NCBI GenBank assembly: GCA_016649715.1
Contig: JAENXC010000004.1
Span: 124,001-188,000 of the forward strand
Length of the DNA: 64,000 nt
Direction: 5' to 3'
Source of the DNA: Flavobacteriaceae bacterium
GTDB taxonomy: Bacteria > Bacteroidota > Bacteroidia > Flavobacteriales > Flavobacteriaceae
Shown: positions 3,293 to 53,599 of the stretch, piece after piece
Layout of the letters: each line of letters begins with the position of its first letter
How positions within the stretch are numbered: position 1 is the first letter of the stretch
Notes under the pieces: model-generated
Database searches by the model: none
Seen by the model: the letters and a program-made list of their open reading frames with translations, nothing else
What the model was told of the DNA's origin: nothing
Position numbers and translations under genes: made by a program

Positions 3293-3328
3293 ACCAACTC
3301 TTCTTTCTAAATTTTACTTTTATAGTTA

Positions 3329-3336
3329 TAACTTTG
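3329..3336 (+). promoter_or_regulatory. TAnnTTTG box 4 bases before gpmI ATG
   Basis: TAACTTTG is a perfect match to the Bacteroidota -7 consensus and is separated from the gpmI ATG at 3341 only by CACA. Since transcription normally starts several bases after this box, the message would be leaderless or nearly so. There is no Shine-Dalgarno-like stretch. The -33 element is not evident. Confidence 0.45.
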
Positions 3337-3340
3337 CACA

Positions 3341-4879
3341 ATGAATAAAAAAGTCCTCCTAATGATCCTCGACGGCTGGGGAGTTACGCAAGATCCCACC
3401 GTTTCCGCCATCGCACAGGCCAATACGCCTTTTATAGATTCACTGTATAAAAAATATCCACACGCTCAATTGCTCACAGACGGGATGAACGTGGGTTTGC
3501 CGCCCGGGCAAATGGGCAACAGCGAAGTGGGCCATATGAACCTCGGTGCGGGAAGGATTGTTTATCAAGACCTCGCCAAAATAAATATGGCAGTTCAAAA
3601 CGGAACGCTGAACAGCGAGCCCGAACTGCAAAAAGCCTTTGAATACGCAAAAAGCCATAATAAAAACATACACTTTTTGGGTCTCGTTTCCAATGGTGGC
3701 GTGCATTCGCACATTGATCATTTAAAAGGATTGCTTACCGCAGCACAGAATGATGGTTTGAAAAACGTATATGTCCACGCTTTTACCGATGGCCGCGATG
3801 TGGACCCACATTCGGGGAAAGGTTTTATAGCAGATTTACAGAACCATTTGGAAAAAACTGGTGGAAAATTGGCATCAATCGTTGGCCGTTATTACGCAAT
3901 GGACCGCGACAAACGTTGGGAACGCGTTAAAAAAGCGTATGATTTGTTGGTCTTCGGAAAAGGGAAACCTTCAACCAATGCCGTAAAAAGCATTGAAGAA
4001 AGTTATGCCGAAGGAATCACCGACGAATTTATCGAACCAATTGTAATGACAACATCCGAGGCCGTGCCTGCCGGCAGGCAGGGAAAGCCAGTTGCAACCA
4101 TTGAAAAAGATGACGTTGTTATTTTCTTCAACTTTAGGACGGATCGAGGCAGACAACTCACCGAAGTTTTGACACAAAAAGATCACGAAAGTTTTGGGAT
4201 GAAAACGCTTCCGCTGTATTTTGTAACGCTCACCAATTACGATGATTCCTTCGGAAATATTCACGTGGTTTACAACAAGGAAAACCTGCACGATACTTTG
4301 GGGGAAATATTGGAGAAGAATGGAAAGAAGCAAATCCGTATTGCTGAAACCGAGAAATATCCACACGTAACGTACTTCTTTTCGGGCGGAAGGGAAATTC
4401 CTTTTGAGGGTGAAAAACGCATCCTTTGCCCATCACCTACAGTTGCTACTTACGATTTAAAACCCGAAATGAGCGCCTATGAACTTCGGGATATGATTTT
4501 GCCGGAAATTGAAAATGAAACCGCCGATTTTATTTGCCTAAATTTCGCAAACGCAGATATGGTTGGCCACACTGGCGTTTTTGAAGCAGCCGTAAAAGCC
4601 TGCGAAACCGTTGACAACTGCGTACGTTCAATAGTGGAGCAAGCTTTGGAAAACCATTACGCAACAATAATCATTGCAGACCACGGCAACAGTGAAACCA
4701 TGCGAAACCCAGATGGTTCTCCGAACACGGCTCACACGACTAACCCAGTTCCGATAATAATTGTGGATGACGAAATCAAAACAGTTAAAAACGGAATTTT
4801 GGGCGATATTGCTCCAACTATTCTCGATATTATGGGGATTGAAAAACCCAAGATTATGACACGGGAATCTCTGATTTGA
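3341..4879 (+). CDS. gpmI: 2,3-bisphosphoglycerate-independent phosphoglycerate mutase
   Basis: Glycolytic and gluconeogenic enzyme interconverting 3- and 2-phosphoglycerate in the cytoplasm using two Mn2+ ions. It is 512 residues, the usual length. The alkaline-phosphatase-like metal site is visible: D11 in ILDGWG, phospho-acceptor S61 in GNSEVGHMNLGAGR, HSHIDHL, HAFTDGRDVDP and the C-terminal ADHGNSE. Residues about 239-249 (SEAVPAGRQGK) look like an in-frame insertion encoded by a GC-rich palindromic element at 4055-4087, located before the VVIFFNFRTDRGR core. A TAnnTTTG box sits 4 bases before the ATG. A DoxX-like gene follows after about 50 bases. Confidence 0.96.
   Translation: MNKKVLLMILDGWGVTQDPTVSAIAQANTPFIDSLYKKYPHAQLLTDGMNVGLPPGQMGNSEVGHMNLGAGRIVYQDLAKINMAVQNGTLNSEPELQKAFEYAKSHNKNIHFLGLVSNGGVHSHIDHLKGLLTAAQNDGLKNVYVHAFTDGRDVDPHSGKGFIADLQNHLEKTGGKLASIVGRYYAMDRDKRWERVKKAYDLLVFGKGKPSTNAVKSIEESYAEGITDEFIEPIVMTTSEAVPAGRQGKPVATIEKDDVVIFFNFRTDRGRQLTEVLTQKDHESFGMKTLPLYFVTLTNYDDSFGNIHVVYNKENLHDTLGEILEKNGKKQIRIAETEKYPHVTYFFSGGREIPFEGEKRILCPSPTVATYDLKPEMSAYELRDMILPEIENETADFICLNFANADMVGHTGVFEAAVKACETVDNCVRSIVEQALENHYATIIIADHGNSETMRNPDGSPNTAHTTNPVPIIIVDDEIKTVKNGILGDIAPTILDIMGIEKPKIMTRESLI
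4055..4087 (+). repeat. GC-rich palindromic element in frame within gpmI (copy 1)
   Basis: Core TGCCTGCCGGCAGGCAGG is a near-perfect palindrome. Its flank TCCGAGGCCG is shared, with one change, by the copy at 49606-49639 in the aspartyl protease gene, and the palindromic core recurs in valS at 53302-53324. It encodes EAVPAGRQGK without breaking the frame. It is more GC-rich than the surrounding gene. This looks like a mobile or templated intragenic repeat comparable in behaviour to Rickettsia palindromic elements, though unrelated in sequence as far as I can tell. Confidence 0.75.
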
Positions 4880-4931
4880 ATTAATATGTCAGAATTAACG
4901 ATTGATCGACTAAGATTAAAAGATATAAATT

Positions 4932-28341: not shown

Positions 28342-29778
28342 TTACCCAAAAGCTATTTCATCATCGTGAAGGATGGCTTCGGTATGTTTTTTTACCAGTT
28401 CCAGTTTTTCTTTTAGCGACATTTCCTCAGTGATTTTTCCTTCGTCCAAAAGATTTAAAATTGCTTTGTCCTGTGCCCGTCCTCGTTTTAGTGCTTCGGA
28501 ATAGGGGATTGATTCCTTAAAGGTAACCAAAGAATATTTGCTGTAATAATCTTCGGGGAATTCTGCTTCAAAAGCTGTTTCCAGTTTTCTTTTTCTCTGA
28601 AAAATTTCCATCGCGGTGTGCTCCTTCATTTCGTGGAAATTGTCCACCGCCAAATCTGCAATTGCATCCGTATCTTTTTTCCGAAGCGCTTCGTATTCTT
28701 TAAAAATAGCTTCCCAATCAACTCCTCCCCCTTGGGGAGGCCAGGAGGTGACATATTTCTCAAGAATTTCATCAAAAACCACAACATCCTCAAAGGAAGC
28801 ATTCATTCCCTGCCCGTAGAATGGGACTATTGCGTGCGCGGCATCGCCCAAAAGAAGCACTTTTCCGTAGCTATTCCAAGGCGAACATTTTACGGTGCCG
28901 AGCGGCCCAATTGGGTTTCCGAAAAATTCTTCGGAAAGGTTCGGGATCATTTCCACCACATCGGGGAATTCTTTGTTGAAATATTCGTGCACCATTTCTG
29001 GCGTGGTCAAATTGGCGAAGCAATAGTCGCTGTTTTCATAGGGAAGGAATAGCGTAACGGTAAAACTTCCGTCCAGATTTGGCAGGGCAATCAACATATC
29101 TTCGCCTCGTGGCCAGATGTGTAAAGCATTAATATAAGTTCTGTAACCGCCGTTTTCGGAATTCGATTCGCGCTTGGGCAATGCAGGAATTTCAAGTTCT
29201 TTGTAACCGTGGCTCAGCCATTGCTGCGAAAAACTGAAGAGAAACTTGTGACTCTCGAACATACTTTTGCGAACCGCAGACCCTGCGCCGTCGGTTCCGA
29301 AAATTACATCAGCTGAAATAGTTATTTCCTTATTAGTATCATATTCTTTAAAAACGGCTGTAGCATTTTCCAAATCCACAGTTTCGCAAGCGTGGTTGAA
29401 AATGATTTTTACGTTTGGCATTTTTTCGGCTTCATCCAATAAAAGTATATTCAGCCCAGGTCGTGATATTGAGTTTATATATTCATCCTTTCTACCGCTA
29501 TACGGACTCAAAAATGTGTTTCCGGCTTTGTCGTGAATCATCCTCCCATTCATTGGGATGCAGAGTTTTTTTGCGGCTTCCTCAACTCCTGCTAAACGAA
29601 GTCCTCGTAAACCGCGATCACTCAAAGCTAAGTTTATGGAGCGGCCGGCGTCTTGGGTTACTTTTCGCAAATCGGGGCGTTTTTCAACCAAGGTTACTTG
29701 ATAGCCGCGTTGGGCCATTCGCAGAGCGAGTAGGCTTCCGCAGAGACCGGCACCGATTATTAGGATATTTTTATTCAT
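28342..29778 (-). CDS. kmo: kynurenine 3-monooxygenase
   Basis: FAD-dependent aromatic hydroxylase converting L-kynurenine to 3-hydroxykynurenine with NADPH and O2. 478 residues. FAD-binding GxGxxG at the N-terminus (IIGAGLCGSLLALRMAQRG), the LALSDRGLRGL segment typical of KMO, the second FAD motif LLGDAAHAIVPFYGQGMNASFED, and a helical C-terminal region. Residues about 346-356 (TSWPPQGGGV) appear as an in-frame insertion encoded by a CTCCCC...GGGGAG palindrome at 28722-28752, in a surface segment between FDEILEKY and DWEAIFKEYEALRK. It follows kynU across about 95 bases of inverted repeats. Confidence 0.95.
   Translation of the reverse strand: MNKNILIIGAGLCGSLLALRMAQRGYQVTLVEKRPDLRKVTQDAGRSINLALSDRGLRGLRLAGVEEAAKKLCIPMNGRMIHDKAGNTFLSPYSGRKDEYINSISRPGLNILLLDEAEKMPNVKIIFNHACETVDLENATAVFKEYDTNKEITISADVIFGTDGAGSAVRKSMFESHKFLFSFSQQWLSHGYKELEIPALPKRESNSENGGYRTYINALHIWPRGEDMLIALPNLDGSFTVTLFLPYENSDYCFANLTTPEMVHEYFNKEFPDVVEMIPNLSEEFFGNPIGPLGTVKCSPWNSYGKVLLLGDAAHAIVPFYGQGMNASFEDVVVFDEILEKYVTSWPPQGGGVDWEAIFKEYEALRKKDTDAIADLAVDNFHEMKEHTAMEIFQRKRKLETAFEAEFPEDYYSKYSLVTFKESIPYSEALKRGRAQDKAILNLLDEGKITEEMSLKEKLELVKKHTEAILHDDEIAFG
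28722..28752 (+). repeat. CTCCCC/GGGGAG palindromic element in frame within kmo
   Basis: CCTCCCCCTTGGGGAGG (28724-28740) is a near-perfect palindrome followed by CCAGGAGGTG. A related, more diverged unit (TTCCTCCCCTTCGGGAAAGG and CTGGGGTG) lies intergenically at 43946-43977. In kmo it adds about ten codons without a frame change. Distinct in sequence from the TGCCTGCCGGCAGGCAGG family but similar in behaviour. Confidence 0.72.
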
Positions 29779-49026: not shown

Positions 49027-50367
49027 TTGCAGAAATTGTTGGCCTTCATACTGTTTGTCTTTTTTTCTGCCACTTTGGTGGCCCAATCGGGATTTTTTTT
49101 GCAACACAATAAAAAACGGGATCGCATTCCTTTTCGCTTGATTAATAATCTACCTATTATTGAGGTGGAAATTAACGGTACTCGGCTTTCCTTTATTCTT
49201 GATACGGGCGTGAAATCTACCATTCTTTTTAGCTTGGAGGAAGCAGATAGCGTTCAACTCCGCAATACCTCTCCCGTATTGTTGCAGGGTTTGGGACCGG
49301 GGGGAACTGTGAATGCATTAAAAAGCTTGAACAATAAAATGAAAGTGGGTGATGCAATGGACGTCAATCATTCACTTTATATAATTTTTGATAGTTCTCT
49401 CAATTTTTCTCCGAGAATGGGTATTCCGATCCATGGCATTTTGGGCACTGAATTTTTTCGGAATTTCATTGTTAAAATAAATTATGACGCTGAGGTCATA
49501 ACCATTTACGATCCAAAAAAATACACTTTGAAAGCGTGTAAAAAGTGTGAGGATTTACCGCTTAATTTTGTGGAGAGCAAACCCTACATTTCTTTGAATG
49601 TTGCTTCCGAAGCCGTGCCTGTCGGCAGGCAGGAGAAACAGAAAGAAGTGAAATTATTAATAGATTCAGGCTCTAGCGATGTAATGTGGCTCTTTGATGA
49701 CAAAGGATATATTAAAGAATCTCCCAAAAATTATTTCAATGATTTTTTGGGCCTTGGTCTGAGTGGGAACATTTTCGGAAAGCGCACCCAGATTCCAGAA
49801 CTTAATGTGGGCAAGTACCGTTTAAAAGAAGTGAACACTTCCTTTCCCGAAGAAGATGCAATTACGAAAGCCCGCATTTACGAAGATCGGGACGGCAGTG
49901 TGGGAGGTGGTTTTTTGAGCAGGTTTACAGTAACTTTTGATTATGGCAATAAATTGGTTCGCCTTAAGAAAAACAGTAAGTTCAAGGAGCCATTTCATTA
50001 TAACATGAGTGGGATAACGCTTGAACACGAGGGAATGGAATTGGTAAAACAGGAGCGGCAGGCATCGGTCAATTCAAATGAAAACAGCAATCTTTCCAGA
50101 AACAGTGTATCAATAACCACCGAGGTCCATTTCTCGTTAGTGCCAAAATATGTGGTGGCAGATGTTCGTGAAGGTTCTCCTGCGGCATTGGCAGGAATTC
50201 AGCAGGGAGATGAGGTAATCGCTGTAAATGGAAAACCTTGTTATCAATATGAACTGCATCATTTGATTGAATTGTTTTCAAGCGAAGAGGGAAAAAGGAT
50301 AACAATGGATATAAGAAGAGCTGGGGCTGTAACTAAAATAAAGTTTTTCCTAAAAAGTGTATTCTAA
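49027..50367 (+). CDS. retropepsin-like aspartyl protease with C-terminal PDZ domain
   Basis: 446 residues with a TTG start at 49027 (no in-frame ATG precedes the signal peptide MQKLLAFILFVFFSATLVAQ). Two aspartyl protease lobes show FILDTGVKST (about 58) and LLIDSGSSDVMW (about 213), and a PDZ domain (about 375-440) carries VADVREGSPAALAGIQQGDEVIAVNGK. Family members are periplasmic. The stretch SEAVPVGRQEK (about 194-204) is an in-frame insertion encoded by a palindromic repeat, right before the second catalytic lobe. Substrate unknown. Confidence 0.88.
   Translation: MQKLLAFILFVFFSATLVAQSGFFLQHNKKRDRIPFRLINNLPIIEVEINGTRLSFILDTGVKSTILFSLEEADSVQLRNTSPVLLQGLGPGGTVNALKSLNNKMKVGDAMDVNHSLYIIFDSSLNFSPRMGIPIHGILGTEFFRNFIVKINYDAEVITIYDPKKYTLKACKKCEDLPLNFVESKPYISLNVASEAVPVGRQEKQKEVKLLIDSGSSDVMWLFDDKGYIKESPKNYFNDFLGLGLSGNIFGKRTQIPELNVGKYRLKEVNTSFPEEDAITKARIYEDRDGSVGGGFLSRFTVTFDYGNKLVRLKKNSKFKEPFHYNMSGITLEHEGMELVKQERQASVNSNENSNLSRNSVSITTEVHFSLVPKYVVADVREGSPAALAGIQQGDEVIAVNGKPCYQYELHHLIELFSSEEGKRITMDIRRAGAVTKIKFFLKSVF
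49606..49639 (+). repeat. GC-rich palindromic element in frame within the aspartyl protease gene (copy 2)
   Basis: TCCGAAGCCG then TGCCTGTCGGCAGGCAGG, then AGAAAC. Compared with copy 1 in gpmI it differs at about three positions over some 30 bases, well beyond chance for two unrelated genes, and it encodes SEAVPVGRQEK in the same reading frame as SEAVPAGRQGK there. Confidence 0.75.
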
Positions 50368-50909: not shown

Positions 50910-50917
50910 TACTTTTG
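50910..50917 (+). promoter_or_regulatory. candidate -7 box (TACTTTTG) for valS
   Basis: Perfect TAnnTTTG, 30 bases before the valS ATG at 50948. It overlaps an alternative in-frame TTG, which argues that TTG is not the translation start. Confidence 0.4.
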
Positions 50918-50947
50918 CAACTCATTACTCAAATACCAGACCAAAGT

Positions 50948-53599
50948 ATGGCCTTAGCAGCAAAATATAATGCAAAACAGATTGAGAACAAGTGGTATAG
51001 CTACTGGATGGGAAACCACTATTTCCATTCCGAAGTTGACGAACGGACACCATACACCATAGTCATTCCCCCTCCAAACGTTACCGGAGTTTTGCATATG
51101 GGCCACATGCTCAACAATACGTTGCAGGATGTTTTGATCCGCCGTGCGCGGTTGCAAGGTTTTAATGCCTGCTGGGTACCGGGAACGGATCACGCTTCCA
51201 TTGCAACTGAGGCAAAAGTTGTGGCAAAGTTGAAAGCCGATGGAATTGATAAAGCAGCCCTTTCCCGCGAAGAATTTTTAGAACACGCTTGGGAATGGAC
51301 CCACAAACACGGAGGTATTATTTTAGAACAGCTAAAGAAGCTCGGTGCTTCCTGCGATTGGGACCGAACCAAATTCACGATGGACCCTGAAATGTCTGCC
51401 TCCGTGATAAAGGTTTTTGTTGATCTTTACCGAAAAGGGAATATTTATCGCGGATACAGAATGGTAAATTGGGATCCACAGGCCAAAACTACACTTTCTG
51501 ACGAAGAAGTTATTTATGAAGAAAAACAAGGCAATCTCTATTACTTAGATTATAAAATTGAAGGCAGCAAAGATACGTTGACCATCGCCACCACGCGTCC
51601 CGAAACCATTTTGGGCGATACCGCCATCTGCATCAACCCCAATGATGAAAGGTTTTCATACCTCAAAGGAAAGAAAGCCATCGTTCCCGTTTGCAACCGC
51701 GTTGTCCCAATCATTGAAGATGAATACGTGGATGTTGAATTCGGAACTGGTTGCTTAAAAGTAACTCCCGCCCACGACGAAAACGATAAAATGTTGGGCG
51801 ATACCCACAATCTTGAAATTATCGATATTCTGAATGATGACGGAACTTTAAATAGCTTCGGTCTTCATTACGAAGGGAAAGACCGCTTTGTGGTCCGTAA
51901 GGAAATTGTAAGGGAACTTGAAGCAATGGGCGTGGTTTCAAAAATAGAAATACATATCCACAAAGTTGGCACCAGCGAGCGTACCGGTGCGATTATAGAA
52001 CCAAAACTAAGCGATCAATGGTTCCTTAAAATGAAGGAACTCGCGCAACCAGCTCTGGATGCTGTTCTTAATAAAGACGTAAACATAGTTCCCGAAAAAT
52101 TCGTAAACACCTACCGCCACTGGATGGAAAATGTGCGCGACTGGAACATCTCCCGCCAACTTTGGTGGGGACAGCAAATTCCCGCATATTTCTATGGCGA
52201 CGGAAAGGAAGATTTCGTTGTTGCCGAAACCATTGAAGAAGCTTTAAAACTTGCCCAAGAAAAGACTACCAACTACCAACTAAAAACTACCGACTTAAAA
52301 CAAGACCCCGATGCCTTGGACACTTGGTTTTCCTCCTGGCTATGGCCCATCAGCGTTTTCAACGGAATCCTGGAGCCGGACAACAAAGAAATAAATTATT
52401 ATTACCCAACCAACGACCTCGTTACTGCACCCGAAATATTGTTTTTCTGGGTAGCACGAATGATAATCGCTGGTTACGAATATAGAAACGAGAAGCCTTT
52501 CACAAATGTTTATTTAACGGGAATAGTTCGCGATAAACAGCGCAGAAAAATGAGTAAATCTTTGGGCAATTCCCCAGATCCAATAGATCTGATGAATACC
52601 TACGGCGCCGATGGCGTGCGTGTAGGGATGCTTTTAAGTTCACCTGCGGGAAATGATTTAATGTTTGATGAGGATTTGTGCAAGCAGGGTAGTGGCTTCG
52701 TTAATAAAATCTGGAACGCCTATCGTTTGATTGATGGTTGGAAAGTTTCCTTGGAAAAGAAACAATCACAAAGTGACGTTATCGCCCTTCAATGGTACCG
52801 AAGCAAATTCCAAAAAACCCTTGCTGAAATTGAAGACCACTATAGCAAATACCGCATCAGCGACGCTTTAATGTCAACCTATAAATTGATTTGGGACGAT
52901 TTCTGCTCTTGGTTGTTAGAAATGGTGAAACCGCCTTTCGGTGAAAAGATTTCAGAAAAAACCTATTTGGAAGTTATTTCACTTCTGGAAGATAACTTGA
53001 AAATACTGCACCCTTTCGTTCCCTTCATTTCTGAAGAAATCTGGCAGCACATCACCCAACGCGACATTTCCGAAGCTTTGATAATTGCTAAATGGCCAAA
53101 AATTGAATCTTATAATGAACAAATCATCAAAGATTTCGAATTTGCTTCGGAAGTAATCTCCAGAATAAGAACTATTCGCAAAGAGAAGAATATTTCCTTT
53201 AAGGACACCATCACGCTTTCCGTGCTCAATAATGACAATGCTTCAAAGGAATTTGATGCAGTAATATCAAAACTCGGCAACATTTCAGAATTGAATTACA
53301 TTCCTGCCTCGCCGGCAGGCAGGTCAGAAAAACTAGATGGCGCCCTTACTTTCCGCGTAAAAAGCAACGAATATTTCATTCCAATCGCTGGCTCCATAAA
53401 CCTTGAAGAAGAAAAAGCAAAGCTTTCCGAAGAATTGAAATATACCGAAGGTTTCTTAAGAAGTGTTCAGGGCAAACTGAAAAACGAACGTTTCGTAAGC
53501 GGTGCGCCGGAGCAGGTTGTGGCTTTGGAAAAACAAAAAGAAGCAGATGCGTTGGCGAAGATTGAAACCTTAAAAGCAAGTTTAGCAGGACTGAAGTAA
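50948..53599 (+). CDS. valS: valyl-tRNA synthetase
   Basis: Class I aminoacyl-tRNA synthetase charging tRNA-Val. 883 residues from ATG 50948, normal for the bacterial enzyme. HIGH-type motif in PPPNVTGVLHMGHMLNNTLQD (HMGH), the CP1 editing domain with TTRPETILGDTAI and KVTPAHDEND, KMSKSLGNS, an anticodon-binding helical domain and the C-terminal coiled coil. IPASPAGRSEK near residue 785-796, just before the C-terminal coiled coil, is an in-frame insertion encoded by a palindromic repeat. An IS256-type element begins about 60 bases after the stop. Confidence 0.97.
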   Translation: MALAAKYNAKQIENKWYSYWMGNHYFHSEVDERTPYTIVIPPPNVTGVLHMGHMLNNTLQDVLIRRARLQGFNACWVPGTDHASIATEAKVVAKLKADGIDKAALSREEFLEHAWEWTHKHGGIILEQLKKLGASCDWDRTKFTMDPEMSASVIKVFVDLYRKGNIYRGYRMVNWDPQAKTTLSDEEVIYEEKQGNLYYLDYKIEGSKDTLTIATTRPETILGDTAICINPNDERFSYLKGKKAIVPVCNRVVPIIEDEYVDVEFGTGCLKVTPAHDENDKMLGDTHNLEIIDILNDDGTLNSFGLHYEGKDRFVVRKEIVRELEAMGVVSKIEIHIHKVGTSERTGAIIEPKLSDQWFLKMKELAQPALDAVLNKDVNIVPEKFVNTYRHWMENVRDWNISRQLWWGQQIPAYFYGDGKEDFVVAETIEEALKLAQEKTTNYQLKTTDLKQDPDALDTWFSSWLWPISVFNGILEPDNKEINYYYPTNDLVTAPEILFFWVARMIIAGYEYRNEKPFTNVYLTGIVRDKQRRKMSKSLGNSPDPIDLMNTYGADGVRVGMLLSSPAGNDLMFDEDLCKQGSGFVNKIWNAYRLIDGWKVSLEKKQSQSDVIALQWYRSKFQKTLAEIEDHYSKYRISDALMSTYKLIWDDFCSWLLEMVKPPFGEKISEKTYLEVISLLEDNLKILHPFVPFISEEIWQHITQRDISEALIIAKWPKIESYNEQIIKDFEFASEVISRIRTIRKEKNISFKDTITLSVLNNDNASKEFDAVISKLGNISELNYIPASPAGRSEKLDGALTFRVKSNEYFIPIAGSINLEEEKAKLSEELKYTEGFLRSVQGKLKNERFVSGAPEQVVALEKQKEADALAKIETLKASLAGLK
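53302..53324 (+). repeat. GC-rich palindromic element in frame within valS (copy 3)
   Basis: CCTGCCTCGCCGGCAGGCAGG, with GCCGGCAGGCAGG identical to the core of the gpmI copy. The 5' side differs (no TCCGARGCCG flank), so it may be a truncated or separately arising family member. It encodes PASPAGR in frame. Confidence 0.65.

Follow-up and report, generated by a model that had tools for sequence, protein, structure and literature searches.

The genome that we analysed belongs to the genus Aequorivita (Bacteroidota; 3.4 Mb, 71 contigs) and carries, scattered over its genes and intergenic regions, copies of a palindrome of 20-21 bp. Our results give good support to the view that this palindrome represents a new kind of palindromic element, very short and protein-coding; to our knowledge, it is among the shortest mobile palindromes. 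As judged by sequence comparison, its copies are insertions relative to empty sites, they have an exact length and a target at the DNA level in Aequorivita, and the same sequence is found in unrelated phyla. We think that it is quite probably a non-autonomous mobile palindrome of the REP or RPE (Rickettsia palindromic element) type, whose frame-neutral copies survive in genes. Intragenic REPs and Rickettsia palindromic elements are the closest known kinds.

Insertions in Aequorivita genes and empty sites in relatives

In the window, i.e. the whole stretch of 64,000 nucleotides of this genome that was analysed, related DNA is present in gpmI, in an aspartyl protease gene and in valS, as the original prediction had described (Table 1). 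The shared element was then thought to span about 30 bases. The shared DNA is there, but the insert proper has 21 bp and the SE...EK context around it belongs to the target. Moreover, the gpmI and protease copies had been said to differ at three positions; we found two differences in 28 bases (TCC to AGG), one of them inside the insert. The insert adds AVPAGRQ between SE and GK in gpmI and reads AVPVGRQ in the aspartyl protease.

Table 1. Inserts in the window and the genes that contain them; the end points of the three inserts are uncertain by 1 base.
Feature	Position in window	Strand	Basis
21-bp insert CC-G-TGCCTGCCGGCAGGCA-GG in gpmI	4062..4082	+	sequence, gaps in relatives; structures 1ejj, 1o99
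gpmI, cofactor-independent phosphoglycerate mutase ORF (host)	3341..4879	+	Pfam iPGM_N, Metalloenzyme
21-bp insert, central C changed to T (CCGTGCCTGTCGGCAGGCAGG), in aspartyl protease gene	49613..49633	+	sequence, relatives
Aspartyl protease + PDZ ORF (host)	49027..50367	+	Pfam Asp_protease_2, PDZ_6
21-bp insert CCTGCCTCGCCGGCAGGCAGG in valS	53303..53323	+	sequence, relatives, hairpin scan
valS, valyl-tRNA synthetase ORF (host)	50915..53599	+	Pfam tRNA-synt_1, Anticodon_1, Val_tRNA-synt_C

An alternative was that these residues form an ancestral loop. When genes were compared with their counterparts in Aequorivita relatives, the relatives had an empty site, differed by 21 bp and were devoid of the residues in 16 genes out of 16; these are 15 of the genes that hold the some 30 genic copies of the window genome, plus nadD of two related species. 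In gpmI, the gap measures exactly 21 bases in all 14 aligned relatives, and the two aligned structures, 1ejj and 1o99, are both shorter by 7 residues at this position (structures were compared for gpmI only). A predicted structure model of gpmI was set aside (mean pLDDT 56), and Rfam gave no match in window positions 3300-4900. Of 27 Aequorivita gpmI genes, 25 are without the insert; the two carriers are the window genome and A. capsosiphonis (G452). These species are not sister taxa on the best tree, which requires two changes. Since the AU test does not reject a single origin (p 0.36), repeated insertion at this one site is unproven. Local identity in gpmI shows no sign of recent transfer.

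The gap of 21 bases was also found in every one of the 50 sequences compared with 12 further genes of the window genome, with 2 to 8 relatives per gene and the aspartyl protease (three relatives) among the 12; for the RecB-like helicase, the aligner puts it some bases aside. In valS, all eight relatives are empty, with the site ATT^TCAGAAAAA or close to it. The CysQ insert is present in the window genome and in a related genome (G013) and absent in eight relatives, one further row being too diverged. That of NadD is present in G013 and G012 and absent in 25 of 27 genomes, among them the window genome; here the exact 21-bp difference comes from one relative only (G022), the others being also without a neighbouring stretch. 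Compared hosts identified by NCBIfam over its cut-off are NAD(P)H-hydrate dehydratase, GlnRS, PriA, nicotinate phosphoribosyltransferase, a dipeptidase and ManA, and, under the cut-off, the RecB-like helicase, NupC and a histidine kinase. Two more we take to be Tex and an M1 peptidase.

Forms, target and reading frame of the element

The basic unit is CCTGCCTGCCGGCAGGCAGG, a perfect palindrome of 20 bp without a loop. A palindromic core had been proposed, and this holds for the full 20-mer, whereas the 18-mer quoted at the time is itself an incomplete palindrome. The 21-bp form consists of the same 20-mer with one extra base, mostly at position 3 (usually CC-G-TGCC), and is the usual one inside genes of the window genome. 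The valS copy represents a third form, in which an extra C lies inside the left arm of the 20-mer, again giving 21 bp. Folded as single-strand DNA, the 20-mer and the 21-mer reach -8.0 and -6.9 kcal/mol, respectively, which is a modest hairpin. Because the 21-bp form is a whole number of codons long and free of stop codons in all six frames, each insertion adds seven residues, whatever the site.

Five strand-matches to the 18-base core, at two places, were found in the window when up to 3 mismatches were allowed (mean of shuffled sequences, 0.05). Further copies in the genome had been anticipated, and they are numerous: at the same threshold, the whole genome gave 95 strand-matches, which correspond to 60 distinct sites, and the reversed-pattern control gave 0. 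The genic copies, counted by hand, amount to 30 when the longest ORF is required to have at least 120 aa; a doubtful ORF (L048), the duplicates at L074 and copies in shorter ORFs are left out of this number. One RecB-like helicase gene (L054) contains two copies.

Intergenic copies typically read AA-CCTGCCTGCCGGCAGGCAGG-TT, with 20 bp, and genic copies TTCCGAAG-CCGTGCCTGCCGGCAGGCAGG-AAAAA, with an insert of 21 bp. With strict patterns applied to the fetched loci of the window genome only, clean and unambiguous 20-bp copies are non-genic in six cases, unclear in one and in an ORF in two, whereas clean CCG/CCA copies of 21 bp occupy 11 ORF places (one of these ORFs, of 166 aa, being doubtful) and a single non-genic place. 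CCC copies, which match both patterns, occur at three further places, all non-genic. This split between a mostly non-genic 20-bp form and a mostly genic 21-bp form points to frame selection acting on a mobile sequence in the window genome; 20-bp copies that land within genes would be purged as frameshifts. In CPR genomes, 20-bp palindromes are also present within long ORFs, where an extra edge base seems to keep the frame.

In the window genome, the target of the 21-bp form is TTCCGAAG^AAAAA. In 18 distinct copies of this genome, the left flank has A at -3 in all, G in 17 at both -4 and -1, and C in 16 at -6; the right flank is A-rich. The valS insert is an exception to the TTCCGAAG target, and the 20-bp form displays no clear single target. 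The target is already there in empty relatives, for instance as TTCCGAAGAAAAA, in 3 of 3 relatives for the histidine kinase and in 1 of 3 for nicotinate phosphoribosyltransferase. Therefore the SE...EK codons are pre-existing target DNA outside the insert, and TCCGAAG, encoding SE, predates the insertion. As the flank is kept in NnrD, where the frame is another one, and in PriA, where the strand is, the preference operates at the DNA level.

Such a target also bears on the shared reading frame noticed in the original prediction. The common frame is real and is partly owed to the codon phase of the target: 33 of the 68 genic target-like sites of the window (up to 2 mismatches) are in one codon phase, and since the target mostly falls in one phase, most copies read SEAVPAGRQE. 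However, this does not account for all of it. Two of the six frames contain 27 of the 30 genic copies, against 39 of the 68 target sites (p 1.1e-4), and 22 of the 30 share the same single frame, above what the target phase predicts (p 0.005). Given this excess, some frames seem to be selected against.

Occurrence in other phyla

An exact search with a 24-base pattern, three positions of which are two-fold, retrieved 30 stretches in 23 genomes, 20 of them from outside Aequorivita. Several are Patescibacteria: the carriers comprise Woese-, Collier-, Levy-, Gottesman- (two), Chisholm-, Sung- and Daviesbacteria, together with Saganbacteria, Margulisbacteria, Lindowbacteria, Omnitrophota (two), Chlorobiota, Saprospiraceae (two), Bacteroidales, other Bacteroidota and one further bacterium. 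Of the 25 stretches from outside Aequorivita, 13 have a longest ORF that reads xEA(V/M)PAGRQ; the other 12 have a different frame or a short ORF. For 20 of the 23 genomes, the whole genome was screened with the 16-base core, which gave between 1 and 34 copies per genome (none with the reversed control). Closer to the window genome, the distribution is patchy. Among 395 genomes of the phylum, 7 have the 21-base pattern with at most 1 mismatch, and among 39 relatives 10, all within the genus, have the 16-base pattern; both counts include the window genome itself.

For Aequorivita and several uncultured phyla, these comparisons resolve protein-coding palindromic insertion to the single base, against empty sites. 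The presence of the same short element in such distant phyla points to a mobilising enzyme or process of wide host range, and also to a recurrent origin of seven-residue loops in core enzymes.

In a Daviesbacterium (G451), we found 23 forward and 24 reverse matches. Insert hosts that NCBIfam names or suggests are CopA, ATP synthase beta, SucD, CTP synthase, DnaG, Obg and D-Ala-D-Ala carboxypeptidase. Compared with their families, there is a net gain of seven codons in CopA (11 of 12 relatives), SucD (5 of 5), PyrG (5 of 6) and the carboxypeptidase (2 of 3); the twelfth CopA relative has residues of its own there, the sixth PyrG is about equally long and the third carboxypeptidase is a longer form. 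The difference is of six codons and not seven in AtpD (11 of 11), DnaG (4 of 4) and Obg (4 of 4). The 21-bp length may therefore not be general in this genome, or it may be blurred by family distance, which leaves the exact insert length unfixed in this comparison.

In one Daviesbacteria relative (L448), the carboxypeptidase site is occupied by a longer version whose outer arms are the same. A Gottesmanbacteria (L096) and a Chisholmbacteria (L099) sequence have the insert at what seems to be the same place of a putative superoxide dismutase gene. Virus scans yielded 39 stretches with the 18-mer and three with the CC(A/G)TG 21-bp form, and no clear phage carrier among them. On the viral contig L201, positions 2239-2330, the 20-bp palindrome lies in a tRNA-Met gene that ARAGORN still calls, with 92 bases; L177 resembles this case, with no ARAGORN call.

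Known systems and possible origins

The comparison with Rickettsia palindromic elements, made in principle by the original prediction, is upheld by a palindrome that is dispersed over about 60 sites. As presented in passages of PMC2229807 and PMC10969869, RPEs are palindromic repeats of about 105-150 bp that are dispersed in the genome of Rickettsia, in frame in unrelated protein genes, and that are also found in intergenic regions and RNA genes. With respect to that description, our element is likewise in frame in unrelated protein genes (16 of 16 compared), but it has only 20-21 bp, it resides in Aequorivita, Patescibacteria and others, it has a sharp target in one genome and its sequence is the same across phyla.

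REPs tagged with GTAG or CGTC are described in part of PMC3733652 as palindromes of 20-40 bp in high copy number, some of them in ORFs, from several phyla; CGTC repeats are known also from Bacteroidetes and Chlorobi. To judge from that account, the small size and the high copy number are common features. However, our 20-bp element is a perfect, loopless palindrome without a GTAG or CGTC tag (18 copies of the window genome), it brackets no RAYT gene (31 Y1 loci) and, of the clean 21-bp copies retrieved for the window genome, most are in ORFs. A passage of the same source gives MITEs a size of 70-300 bp with terminal repeats of 15-30 bp. Our element is non-autonomous and made of inverted repeats like MITEs, which are sometimes fused in frame. 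Unlike the MITEs of that description, it is entirely contained in 20-21 bp, with no internal region between the arms and with no target duplication beyond the ambiguous 1 base in the gpmI, 12-gene and valS comparisons. Searches of the literature by DNA core, peptides and topic returned no paper on the element, most subscription journals being outside their reach; matches to the sequence were judged to be chance.

How could such copies have arisen? Selection for the peptide SEAVPAGRQEK as a functional tag would explain both the repeated sequence and the frame, and the excess of one frame over the target-phase prediction is in its favour. Nevertheless, the copies in NnrD, PriA and CysQ are antisense or in another frame, intergenic copies exist and the SE/EK part is older than the insertion; the off-frame copies largely refute this explanation, which we regard as very improbable. 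Perfect palindromes are possible products of template switching, and these could in principle have appeared in place, by this route or by replication slippage, without any movement. The identical bases in unrelated genes and phyla, as well as the lack of a precursor palindrome arm at the empty sites of gpmI, the 12-gene set and valS, make this hardly credible. We give just as little credit to an assembly or library artefact caused by a linker-like sequence. It is true that many carriers are metagenome assemblies and that a few copies lie near contig ends, but the element occurs in the records for A. capsosiphonis DSM 23843 and for A. todarodis KCTC 62141, and the same gpmI site is filled in two species with diverged flanks.

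A more serious candidate is a REP of the classical type, mobilised by a RAYT/IS200-type Y1 (HUH) transposase, which would recognise the single-strand hairpin and insert it 3' of a short target (GAAG) without target duplication. A Y1 (RAYT-type) transposase is presumably the natural suspect as mover. The hairpin size, the dispersal and the fixed 5' neighbour GAAG recall tagged REPs, and no long target duplication was seen. In addition, a Y1_Tnp gene was detected in 12 of 18 distinct genomes tested, the window genome having one, and two Y1 loci (L279 and L293) have the exact core on one side; one further locus has a match with 3 mismatches. Against this, none of 31 Y1 loci (four of them duplicates) is bracketed by the palindrome, several carry different hairpins of their own, and Y1_Tnp was not detected in 6 of the 18 genomes, including the Daviesbacterium with its about two dozen copies. 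The flank consensus is GAAG, and neither GTAG nor CGTC adjoins any of the 18 copies of the window genome, the only ones submitted to this test. The single Y1_Tnp match of that genome has no core within its 3.3-kb locus. A linked protein recognising the palindrome had been suggested; none was found in our search, which covered Y1 transposases. Since the assemblies are incomplete and the 31 loci are part of all Y1 matches, these results weaken, for this element, the Y1 route and membership in the REP/RAYT system, which we now find unlikely.

We thus favour a non-autonomous mobile palindrome. An enzyme supplied in trans would move or copy it, probably as a hairpin, and spread between phyla would proceed via gene transfer followed by local multiplication. 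A bolder version, which we put forward tentatively and hold to be somewhat short of an even chance, is that the 20-21 bp palindrome is itself mobile, has crossed phyla (Bacteroidota, Patescibacteria, Margulisbacteria, Omnitrophota, Chlorobiota), multiplies via an undescribed recombinase whose target spans some 8-12 bp and, in its 21-bp form, has evolved a version that is open in six frames and can live in essential genes.

Other hairpins were observed in the course of these comparisons. Y1/RAYT-like genes of carriers are accompanied by private hairpins at L283, L295, L296 and L303. In the window genome and in G013, the CysQ gene (L395 and L055) has, besides the 21-bp insert, about 33 extra bp with the quasi-palindrome CCGCTAAAGCTTCGAGCGG, absent in relatives. 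In the NadD genes of three genomes (L392, L393 and L394), a hairpin-like stretch ACCCCCCTGC...CAAGGGGG adjoins the insert site, and one of these three lacks the 20-21 bp palindrome. Finally, a GC-rich hairpin, CCTCCCCCTTGGGGAGG, is located at window positions 28724-28740, in frame (WPPQGGG) in the ORF 28342-29778 (-), presumably a kynurenine 3-monooxygenase gene; it may represent a second family of intragenic palindromes.
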